Source: Halogranum gelatinilyticum
GTDB lineage: Archaea > Halobacteriota > Halobacteria > Halobacteriales > Haloferacaceae
Assembly: GCF_900103715.1 (NCBI RefSeq)
Contig: NZ_FNHL01000002.1
Span: forward strand, 744,001 to 808,000
DNA: 64,000 nt
Direction of reading: 5' to 3'
In this document: one piece after another, positions 13,691-37,896 of the stretch
Numbering within the stretch: position 1 is the first letter of the stretch
Layout: each line of letters opens with the position of its first letter
The notes under the pieces: model-generated
What the model was told of the DNA's origin: nothing
The model's database searches: none
What the model saw: the letters and a program-made list of their open reading frames with translations, nothing else
Made by a program: the position numbers and the translations under genes

Positions 13691-14032
13691 CTACTCCTCC
13701 CAGGGTGCGTTCGTCCGTGGCGGGCTGAAGATGTCGACGCCGACGACCGTCTCGTCGCCGCGGTTCTCCGCCGCGTGCGGCTCCTCGCCGGGGATGACGT
13801 AGGAGTCACCGGGACCGACGACGATCTCTTCCTCGCCGTCGACGACGAAGGTCAAGGTTCCCTCGACGATGTAGCCGGTCTGTTCGTGCGGGTGGTCGTG
13901 TTTTTCGACGGCCGCGCCGGGGTCGATGACGAACTCTTGGACGCTCATCTTCTCGCCCGCTGCCATCTGTGTCAGGTGGACGCCTTCGATTGCTGCTACG
14001 GTGTCGACGTCGTCGTGGGTGACGCGCTCCAT
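13691..14032 (-). CDS. Cupin-domain protein
   Basis: 113 residues forming one small cupin barrel. Motif 1 is 'VEKHDHPHEQTGYIVEGTL' (metal ligands His, His, Glu/Gln region) and motif 2 is 'PGDSYVIPGEEPHAAEN'. Single-domain cupins of this size are metal-binding and act as isomerases, dioxygenases or sugar-binding regulators; which one cannot be told here. ATG 14032 (MERVTHDDVDTV) is the preferred start; ATG 14080 (MPTGDTLNTES) is possible. It lies 90 bp downstream of the phosphoribosyltransferase fusion gene on the same strand. Confidence 0.85.
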   Translation of the reverse strand: MERVTHDDVDTVAAIEGVHLTQMAAGEKMSVQEFVIDPGAAVEKHDHPHEQTGYIVEGTLTFVVDGEEEIVVGPGDSYVIPGEEPHAAENRGDETVVGVDIFSPPRTNAPWEE

Positions 14033-14122: not shown

Positions 14123-15142
14123 CTACCGTAGCTCTTCGGCGAACAGCGCGACCCGACTCCGTACCGTCGTCGTGAGATGCTGCACCGTGAGCCGGGCGAA
14201 GCCGACCGGGTTCCGCGAGAACCGTCCGAGATAGTGGCCGACCCGCTGTTCGATGGAGTAGTACGTCTCCACGGACACGCTGCTGTACTCGGTGTCGGCG
14301 TCGACCATGCTGTTGGACTCGATACAGTAGACGGGTTTGCCGGTCAGCTGTGCGATTTCGGTCGCTTGTTTCAGCGAACTCTCGACGAACAGCTCCGCGC
14401 CGGTGTCCTCGTAGATGGCCGCTTTGTATTCGCCTCGGTTGTCCAACTCGCGTCGGGTCTGTTTGTCCGGCAGATCCATCATCACCAGCTGGTCGTACTC
14501 GACACTGTGTGTCCGAAGCCACGTCTCAGTCTCCTCGCGATACTTCTCCAAGCGACACGTCACCAGCCAGCCGACTTTCTTCGTCGGGACGTACGCCGGT
14601 TCGACCGTCTCGAGGAACCGCCGGTACCGCCGCCCGTCGTCGTTCTCCTCGGGAAACGGGTCTCGGCAGAGCACCCCGTCGATGTCGACACAGGCGTTCC
14701 GAAGTCGCGGATGATGGAGGACGTTCCACTCGAAGACGCGCGGCATCTCGACGACTTCCCACCAGTGGTCGACGAGCTGTGTCCCTTTCGGCGTGACGAA
14801 GATTGCCGCGTAGTCGACGGCGACGTCGCCGAGGTCCAACTCCTCGATTCGCGCTCTGGTCGCCGTCAGCTGATTGCCCGAGTTGACGCTGTCGTCGACG
14901 ACGAGCACACGGCGCACACCGTCGAAGTCGGTCTCGCCCTCGTACCGCTCTCCGGACCCCATGATTCGCCGCTCTGCCAACCCCTCGACGTCGGAGACCG
15001 GAAGGTCGAGATACAGCGACAGCAACGTCGCTGGCGGCATCCCGCTCCGGGGAATGCCGACGATAAGATCGTACTGCCCGCACAGCTCTCGCGCCAGACC
15101 CCGACAGCCATCGTTCATCTCAGCCTGGCTACGGTATCTCAT
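14123..15142 (-). CDS. Phosphoribosyltransferase-HAD-like fusion protein
   Basis: 339 residues. Residues 1-145 form a type I phosphoribosyltransferase: the PRPP loop reads VLVVDDSVNSGNQL (about 78-91), with 'LIVGIPRSGMPPATLLSLYLDLPV' before it. From about residue 150 an HAD-like domain starts with ACVDIDGVLCRDP (DxDGV, motif I), continues through 'GWLVTCRLEKYREETETWL' and ends in 'YEDTGAELFVESSLKQATEIA'. The C-terminal 70 residues are not assigned. The reading frame continues upstream to 15721 antisense to another gene; ATG 15142 is chosen because an AT-rich promoter-like stretch (15160-15190) precedes it. No nucleotide-salvage neighbour explains it; substrate unknown. Confidence 0.8.
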   Translation of the reverse strand: MRYRSQAEMNDGCRGLARELCGQYDLIVGIPRSGMPPATLLSLYLDLPVSDVEGLAERRIMGSGERYEGETDFDGVRRVLVVDDSVNSGNQLTATRARIEELDLGDVAVDYAAIFVTPKGTQLVDHWWEVVEMPRVFEWNVLHHPRLRNACVDIDGVLCRDPFPEENDDGRRYRRFLETVEPAYVPTKKVGWLVTCRLEKYREETETWLRTHSVEYDQLVMMDLPDKQTRRELDNRGEYKAAIYEDTGAELFVESSLKQATEIAQLTGKPVYCIESNSMVDADTEYSSVSVETYYSIEQRVGHYLGRFSRNPVGFARLTVQHLTTTVRSRVALFAEELR

Positions 15143-15167
15143 TCGGTTGCTATCCAAACGTCCTTGG

Positions 15168-15186
15168 AACACATAAGCATATAGAC
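15168..15186 (-). promoter_or_regulatory. AT-rich promoter region of the phosphoribosyltransferase fusion
   Basis: On the minus strand the element reads as TATGCTTATGTG-like sequence about 30-40 nt before the ATG. The surrounding 15143-15240 is far richer in A+T than the neighbouring genes. Confidence 0.4.
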
Positions 15187-15389
15187 AATAAATGCAACAT
15201 ATCAGTACGCCAGAATTGGCAAATACACAGTGATACCGCTGATTTCCCGAACTGTCCCACAACACACCGAGAGGGACGTCGTTTTCTCCCGCTTGGAACT
15301 CGGCTGTCTCGAAGGCAGCGGCTGTCGTGCCTGTCGGGTCCAACGCCGGGGGCCGGAAGTTCAAAAGCATCGCCGACGAAGGATGCGGT

Positions 15390-15914
15390 ATGTATGCGGT
15401 GGTCGGTTGTAACAACTGCAGCAACCTCTGGCTCCTCTCGGATGCGGACACCAAGCAGACGGCGAACTGTTCGCGGTGCGGGAAGACCCACCAGATCAAG
15501 AAGCTCAAACGCTTCTTCGAGTCCGAGAACCACGCCGAAGCGCGGCAGGCGCGGGCTGCCATCCTCGCTGGCAAGCAGGGCCAAAACGAGGCGTTCCAGA
15601 AGGTCGGCCACGTCGCCGACCTCGAACGGGAGGTAGAGAACGCTGGCATCGACGACCGTGAGTATCTCGAACGGTCGGGACTCGACGCCAACGCGGTCGA
15701 AGCCGCGGGCGACGTCGACACCGGCAGTTCCTCGCGGAGTCGTCAGGAGGTCGTGACCGACGCGTTGCGCGAGCGGGACCGGCCGACCGAAGACGAGGTG
15801 GTCGACTACGCGACGGAGCACGGCGTGCCCGCCGAGGCCGCCCGCGACCTCCTGGAGAAGCTGACGCGACGCGGCGAGGTCAGCGAGAGCCGGGGTCGGT
15901 ATCGGCTGCTCTGA
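15390..15914 (+). CDS. Zinc-ribbon protein with C-terminal helix-rich domain (DUF5817-like)
   Basis: 174 residues. The N-terminus is a zinc ribbon with two knuckles, CNNC (about residues 7-10) and CSRC (about 27-30), followed by 'HQIKKLKRFFESENHAEARQARAAILA', a basic then helical segment. The C-terminal 60 residues ('EVVDYATEHGVPAEAARDLLEKLTRRGEVSESRGRYRLL') look like a winged-helix. This combination suggests a nucleic-acid-associated protein, and the family is widespread in Halobacteria; the DUF number is from memory. ATG 15390 puts the first Cys pair near the N-terminus as expected. Confidence 0.8.
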   Translation: MYAVVGCNNCSNLWLLSDADTKQTANCSRCGKTHQIKKLKRFFESENHAEARQARAAILAGKQGQNEAFQKVGHVADLEREVENAGIDDREYLERSGLDANAVEAAGDVDTGSSSRSRQEVVTDALRERDRPTEDEVVDYATEHGVPAEAARDLLEKLTRRGEVSESRGRYRLL

Positions 15915-37050: not shown

Positions 37051-37896
37051 ATGACAATCACCGTCTGCGTGCCGTCCTCGCTCGTCCGGGAAGCCGAGGA
37101 CAAACGCGAGGCAACTCGCAAGCTCGGCTACGTCGCCCGCGCGGCGACCGTGTTCCGGGCGGACAGACTCGTCGTCTTCCCCGACCGGGAAGGCGAAGAA
37201 CGCTGGGGTGGTGAGTTCGTCACCACCGTACTCCAGTACGCCGTGACGCCCCCCTACCTCAAGCAGGAGGCCTGGGACGTCCGCGACGAGCTGGAGTACG
37301 TTGGTGTGCTCCCGCCGCTGCGCGTCTCACCACAGACCGGCTCCGAACCAGACGGTTCGGAGTCGTTAACACAGGGAATCGTGACCGAGGTCGGACCTGA
37401 AGGCCGCGTTCGGGTCAATTGCGGAATGCAACACCCGATCTCCCTCCTCACCCCCTCCGGAATGGAGGTCGAGGCGGGGGAGCGCGTCACCGTCAGGATC
37501 TCTTCGAGAGAACCGGTCCGTGCGCGAATCGTCGATGAGACCCCTCCGGGGTACGTCGTCGAACGCACGGACCTCGCCGAAGCGCTCGACCGGGACGACG
37601 CCGGCGTCAGCATCGCCACGTCGCGACACGGGGAGGAACTCTCCGTCCAGCGACTGTCGACGCTCGTCGGCCGATTACACGACGGGATGACTGTCGTGTT
37701 CGGATCCCCCGGACGAGGGCTTCCGGACATCCTCGACATCGATGTCGAGGACCTCCCCACCGAACGTGGGGCGAGCGTCGGACCCGGCAGCGGGTTCGAC
37801 CTCTGGCTGAATACGATTCCGCGACAGGGCAGCGAGGTGGTGCGAACCGAAGAAGCGATGTTCGCCTCCCTCGCCTGCCTGACACTCACGGAGTGA
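37051..37896 (+). CDS. SPOUT-family RNA methyltransferase (DUF171 type)
   Basis: 281 residues. The archaeal family (putative RNA uridine-N3 methyltransferase) is recognisable by 'RKLGYVARAATVFRADRLVVFPD', 'VLQYAVTPPYLKQEAW' and 'LPPLRV' at the N-terminus, an OB-fold-like insert in the middle ('GIVTEVGPEGRVRVNCGMQHPISL' in parts) and the knot region 'VVFGSPGRGLPDIL' and 'NTIPRQGSEVVRTEEAMFASLACL'. It is likely to methylate rRNA. It starts the ribosomal protein block; L3 begins 5 bp after its stop. ATG 37051 (MTITVCVPSS) is preferred to GTG 37027. Confidence 0.88.
   Translation: MTITVCVPSSLVREAEDKREATRKLGYVARAATVFRADRLVVFPDREGEERWGGEFVTTVLQYAVTPPYLKQEAWDVRDELEYVGVLPPLRVSPQTGSEPDGSESLTQGIVTEVGPEGRVRVNCGMQHPISLLTPSGMEVEAGERVTVRISSREPVRARIVDETPPGYVVERTDLAEALDRDDAGVSIATSRHGEELSVQRLSTLVGRLHDGMTVVFGSPGRGLPDILDIDVEDLPTERGASVGPGSGFDLWLNTIPRQGSEVVRTEEAMFASLACLTLTE

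Follow-up and report, generated by a model that had tools for sequence, protein, structure and literature searches.

A phosphoribosyltransferase-HAD fusion protein of Halogranum gelatinilyticum as a candidate ribofuranosyltransferase for surface glycans

The gene and its upstream region

The window analysed here is a stretch of 64,000 nucleotides of Halogranum gelatinilyticum DNA (contig NZ_FNHL01000002.1, positions 744,001 to 808,000). The presence of a gene for a phosphoribosyltransferase (PRTase) joined to an HAD domain at positions 14123-15142 was confirmed, and the features of the gene and its flanks are as follows.

13691..14032, minus strand: flanking cupin gene, conserved also in relatives with no PRTase-HAD gene at that spot
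14123..15142, minus strand: coding sequence of the PRTase-HAD protein, 339 aa, with ATG at 15142; homologues begin at the equivalent residue
14126..14284, minus strand: C-terminal helical tail, residues 287-339 (from model, alignment and lengths)
14303..14707, minus strand: predicted capless HAD phosphatase domain, residues 146-280 (from model and fold searches)
14675..14686, minus strand: HAD motif I DIDG, residues 153-156 (nucleophile D153, acid/base D155), invariant in 49/49
14708..15142, minus strand: type I phosphoribosyltransferase domain, residues 1-145 (from PF00156, model and XGPRT/HGXPRT matches)
14876..14908, minus strand: PRPP loop VLVVDDSVNSG, residues 79-89
15041..15052, minus strand: PPi loop PRSG, residues 31-34, invariant in 49 homologues
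15143..15242, no strand assigned: A+T-rich upstream region, 41% GC
15169..15188, minus strand: promoter core TTGTCTATAyGCTTATGTGT, 27-46 bp before the start
15327..15914, plus strand: flanking DUF5817 gene, likewise conserved in relatives with no PRTase-HAD gene at that spot

A first-pass annotation had placed a PRPP-binding loop and an HAD-like DIDGV motif on one protein, and this was borne out: VLVVDDSVNSGNQL occupies residues 79-92 and VDIDGV residues 152-157, the protein matches PF00156, and the HAD motifs are invariant in 49 homologues. The surrounding genes encode a cupin, isocitrate dehydrogenase (named by eye from the sequence), DUF5817 and HMG-CoA reductase; no salvage or glycan gene was found among these neighbours, as had already been noticed. 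Across the whole 3.77-Mb genome GT2 occurs 13 times, well under 1% of genes, and the GT2 gene closest to the window copy is about 80 kb off.

The 100 bp upstream had been described as unusually rich in A+T and read as a sign of acquisition. At 41-43% GC they are indeed the lowest among the 50 upstream regions of the window; eight others also lie below 50%, so that this region stands at the edge of an ordinary distribution. The promoter core is conserved between the window copy and its sister species while the flanks have diverged, and the upstream region thus looks like an ordinary promoter. Because it holds a normal core shared with the sister species, its base composition was set aside as a mark of acquisition. 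The composition of the gene itself was likewise set aside as evidence of recent transfer, GC (0.628 vs 0.661 +/- 0.030) and GC3 (0.82 vs 0.86 +/- 0.04) being not clearly foreign.

Domain structure and active sites

An AlphaFold2 model of the window protein (pLDDT 91.8, pTM 0.80) was built on a 49-member alignment of haloarchaeal, bacterial and viral sequences and predicts two soluble domains followed by C-terminal helices; the tail is absent from the viral homologues. Structure prediction and fold search, which the first-pass annotation had proposed as a check, yielded two real domains, an XGPRT-like PRTase and a Pnkp-like capless HAD.

The N-terminal half was assigned to the type I PRTases by its Pfam match (PF00156, residues 8-134, E 7.6e-8, 32.3 bits vs a gathering cut-off of 26.3), its PRPP-loop Asp pair (D84 in 49/49 homologues, D83 in 48/49) and the predicted PRTase fold. 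In fold searches this half matched xanthine-guanine and archaeal HGX phosphoribosyltransferases (1a95, 4z1o, 1vdm) with Z about 15, and it shares with them the fold, the PPi-loop Arg and the PRPP-loop Asp pair. In 6-oxopurine PRTases such as HGPRT and XGPRT, an Asp of the PRPP loop serves as the general base and a Lys binds the purine. When these positions were mapped through HMMER alignments to solved PRTases, Asp was present at the general-base position (column 87) in 2/49 homologues and Lys at the purine-recognition position (column 117) in at most 2/49. Both residues have thus been lost family-wide, which makes a 6-oxopurine acceptor, and with it nucleobase salvage, unlikely. The family further differs from XGPRT and HGXPRT in its fused HAD and its glycan surroundings.

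Within the window protein only PF00156 scored above the Pfam cut-off, and the HAD half gave no Pfam match; weak matches to PHROG polynucleotide-kinase profiles and to bacterial Pnkp1 were obtained for it. Residues 145-278 of the model match the 3'-phosphatase domains of T4 Pnkp (Z 12.4) and Pnkp1 (Z 12.2), in agreement with a search of the HAD domain alone. The likeness lies in the capless HAD fold (Z about 12), the HAD model comprising 140 residues with no cap domain; unlike Pnkp, the domain is fused to a PRTase and has no kinase or RNA-repair partners. Its residues place it among the HAD phosphatases: D153 and D155 of motif I (DxD), K240 of motif III and E254 of the acidic motif IV (49/49 each) and T195 of motif II (47/49), with motif IV in the form E-S rather than D-D.

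Invariant in the 49 homologues are PRSG 31-34, D84, G89, W139, N140, D153, D155, G156, C159, E199, Y201, R202, K240, E254 and S255. Since both sets of active-site residues are conserved, both sites look catalytic, and the loss of metal and PRPP residues, which would have told against the annotation, did not occur. This invariance bears on a regulatory role, in which the PRTase would, like PyrR or GfcR, do no more than sense PRPP or nucleotides, with an unrelated phosphoester as the substrate of the HAD. Weak matches of the PRTase half to GfcR and PurR-type PRTases point that way, but no DNA-binding domain was found, both catalytic sites are kept, and the protein is fused to and clustered with glycan enzymes (see below); we regard such a role as very improbable.

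Distribution and insertion site

Among 391 sampled class-level genomes (Halobacteria), 41 gave strong matches; the remaining 8 of the 49 that the scan reported match other PRTases weakly. Within the genus, one of two further genomes, that of the sister species, carries a copy that is 76% identical and keeps the motifs. An alignment-based scan of bacterial and archaeal genome contigs returned over 500 loci (503 relatives), and a scan of the genome contigs from the single protein gave no match, its patterns being too specific. Homologues were further found in 22 viral contigs and on 41 alphaproteobacterial plasmids; a tblastn search of annotated phage records was negative.

In the tree all 42 haloarchaeal sequences form one clade (96/95), beside bacterial and Woesearchaeotal sequences, which suggests a single entry into Halobacteria. 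The sequences of Haloarcula rara and Halorubrum salipaludis each branch apart from their own genera, suggestive of later loss and exchange. Haloarchaeal copies are patchy and occupy many genomic sites.

The order of isocitrate dehydrogenase, cupin, DUF5817 and HMG-CoA reductase is syntenic in the taxonomic family. In L216, a relative, the match to the cupin is separated from that to DUF5817 by a gap of 93 bp that holds nothing else. The window's insertion is shared by the sister species (L036) alone of the relatives that were examined. Other genes occupy the gap in a genome of the same genus (L213), so that the spot may be a small integration site; there a secreted-looking protein and a YihY-like membrane protein, both named by eye, stand in place of the PRTase-HAD gene (L213:4644-6123). 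Homologues at the same site in all relatives, the pattern expected had the gene not been acquired, were thus not found. The empty site, the patchy spread and the occurrence of homologues in polysaccharide clusters together support the proposal, made in the first-pass annotation, that the gene was acquired alone.

Gene neighbourhoods of homologues

Bacterial copies lie mostly inside glycan clusters (capsule, LPS or EPS). Their 90 immediate neighbours include GT2 (22), a GT4-type model (20), Wzy_C (9), polysaccharide pyruvyltransferase (6) and flippase (4); these neighbours were drawn from about 50 loci and are not independent, many coming from related Bacteroidota. Glycan-gene neighbours recur in alphaproteobacteria, planctomycetes, acidobacteria and one Woesearchaeotal genome. 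On Paracoccus and Bosea plasmids the homologue is surrounded by annotated EPS or LPS genes; in contrast, a Rhizobium copy is near one glycosyltransferase. A Rhizobium copy (L180) sits between genes for a glycosyltransferase and a caspase-family protein, with type VI secretion genes nearby. A Dehalococcoidia MAG encodes a natural 1053-aa fusion in the order PRTase-HAD-FkbM methyltransferase-GT4 (L094:5735-8893), overlapping a small methyltransferase gene. Where homologues carry an annotation, it reads only 'phosphoribosyltransferase family protein'.

Some haloarchaeal copies adjoin flippases and glycosyltransferases, and others, the window and Haloarcula copies among them, are solitary. The viral copies (L156-L177) are short and have GtrB-like, glycosyltransferase and methyltransferase genes in their vicinity; they may have a part in phage-encoded glycan, capsid or DNA glycosylation.

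Three haloarchaeal paralogues have one degenerate domain each. A Haloarcula tandem copy (L055:8845-9816, minus strand), adjoining an intact one, keeps the PRTase motifs and has lost HAD motif I (VDLS-ILC, FIADS). The copies at L056:9158-10270 and L058:9464-10399 (minus strand), in order-level relatives with another copy each, combine a degenerate PRTase (VLLLTDWAET, VLALTDALLD) with an intact HAD. The two steps are therefore not always kept together.

These surroundings weigh on the role suggested in the first-pass annotation, the making of a modified nucleotide, which was not upheld. In this reading the enzyme would ribosylate a base and then remove the phosphate, and the resulting modified nucleoside or nucleotide would serve in signalling or as a building block. 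The nearest solved PRTases do act on purines, the HAD resembles Pnkp, and PRTase and HAD enzymes associated with Ter have been proposed to act in signalling (PMC7824862); however, the general-base Asp and recognition Lys for purines are lost, the neighbours are glycan genes, the Ter PRTase families were not matched in Pfam and defence models were not matched in PADLOC. Such a product is accordingly judged improbable.

Proposed function

The reading we favour, with reasonable though far from full confidence, is that the PRTase-HAD protein is a cytosolic PRPP-dependent ribofuranosyltransferase for surface glycans. It is based on the predicted fold, the conserved catalytic residues, the loss of the purine residues, the glycan-cluster context and the fusion to glycan enzymes. 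In a first step the PRTase, whose PRPP and PPi loops are intact, would use them to bind Mg-PRPP and would move the 5-phosphoribosyl group to a hydroxyl of the growing glycan instead of a nucleobase; in a second, the fused HAD, forming an aspartyl-phosphate on D153, would strip off the 5'-phosphate, and the ribofuranosyl residue that remains could be extended or exported. The glycan on which the window protein probably acts would be the product of genes located elsewhere. Counted against this function are the window and Haloarcula copies without adjoining glycan genes, the closest solved folds, which act on nucleotides and nucleic-acid ends, and the three paralogues with a degenerate domain.

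The solitary position of the gene, away from glycan genes, and the degenerate paralogues in other haloarchaea would also fit a horizontally acquired glycan gene of which H. gelatinilyticum keeps a remnant, either without function or put to another use. The frame is intact, though, the sister copy retains its motifs and the promoter core is conserved, and a remnant therefore seems a poor prospect.

Comparison with known ribosyl-transferring systems

Ribofuranose-containing O-antigens are known from Liberibacter crescens (PMC8537588) and Microbulbifer (PMC3210612). PRPP-dependent ribofuranosyltransferases such as the Klebsiella O4/O7 gPRT-PRP enzymes pair a transferase with an HAD phosphatase (PMC11127046, PMC11231755). 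The same pairing of HAD and PRPP transferase for ribofuranose occurs in Bcs3 (CrpP-CriT) of the Hib capsule (PMC10299916) and in Cj1432 of C. jejuni (PMC12096443). Because the window family unites both kinds of domain of the known enzymes in a single chain and occurs in the same sort of cluster, the same chemistry is the best-supported one.

The gPRT-PRP proteins (Klebsiella O4/O7, Thermobacillus composti) resemble the window family in carrying a PRPP transferase and an HAD on one chain, in their glycan clusters and in their two-step logic; the one-chain arrangement in glycan loci is found in the PRTase-HAD family, the window copy itself lying outside such a locus. A probable difference lies in the transferase half, which in the window family is a canonical type I PRTase resembling XGPRT, its PRPP and PPi loops being of the standard form; Kelly et al. 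2022 reportedly described gPRT as strongly unlike other PRTases. Among the matches listed in the fold searches there was no gPRT, CriT or PRP chain, an absence that does not speak for a difference. In Bcs3 and Cj1432 the HAD precedes the transferase, whereas in the window family the transferase comes first. CrpP has a large alpha-helical cap and retains only the first Asp of motif I (PMC10299916); the window-family HAD is capless with both Asp invariant, and thus departs from the CrpP type of PRP phosphatase. Given its standard type I PRTase, its domain order and its capless two-Asp HAD, the family was not filed within the known ribofuranosyltransferase families.

ORF15 of Citrobacter youngae, a UbiA-type polyprenyl-phosphoribose synthase with a PRP domain in a glycan locus, likewise combines PRPP-dependent ribosyl transfer with an HAD (PMC11127046). 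Such PPPRS-PRP proteins (PMC11127046) offer a precedent for a maker of ribose-bearing donors, in which ribose-5-phosphate would be placed on a carrier (polyprenyl phosphate or a small molecule) and dephosphorylated by the HAD for use by another glycosyltransferase. The glycan context is compatible with this, as is the flippase that adjoins several alphaproteobacterial copies. The UbiA-type enzymes, however, have an integral membrane prenyltransferase fold that is absent from the window protein: no UbiA domain appeared in the Pfam results, and a soluble, XGPRT-like two-domain fold is predicted. Donor synthesis is thus considered unlikely, if worth keeping in mind.

Only recently was it worked out how ribofuranose enters polysaccharides, and two enzyme designs emerged. 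Our judgement leans slightly towards the PRTase-HAD family, as direct ribofuranosyltransferases, forming a third, independently assembled PRPP-dependent class (XGPRT-like type I PRTase plus capless Pnkp-like HAD) common to bacteria, haloarchaea and phages, and providing the first candidate for ribofuranosylating archaeal surface glycans. If so, this third design would derive from ordinary nucleotide-salvage folds, and ribofuranose-containing glycans would be predicted for hundreds of bacterial clusters, for haloarchaea and for viruses. The literature search, outside which the founding paper on gPRT-PRP lay, returned no paper on this exact fusion in glycan clusters.

Elsewhere in the window, an Rfam match to the L4-Archaeoglobi ribosomal leader (RF03135, 75.9 bits) was located at positions 37397-37496, in the ribosomal uL3/uL4 region.
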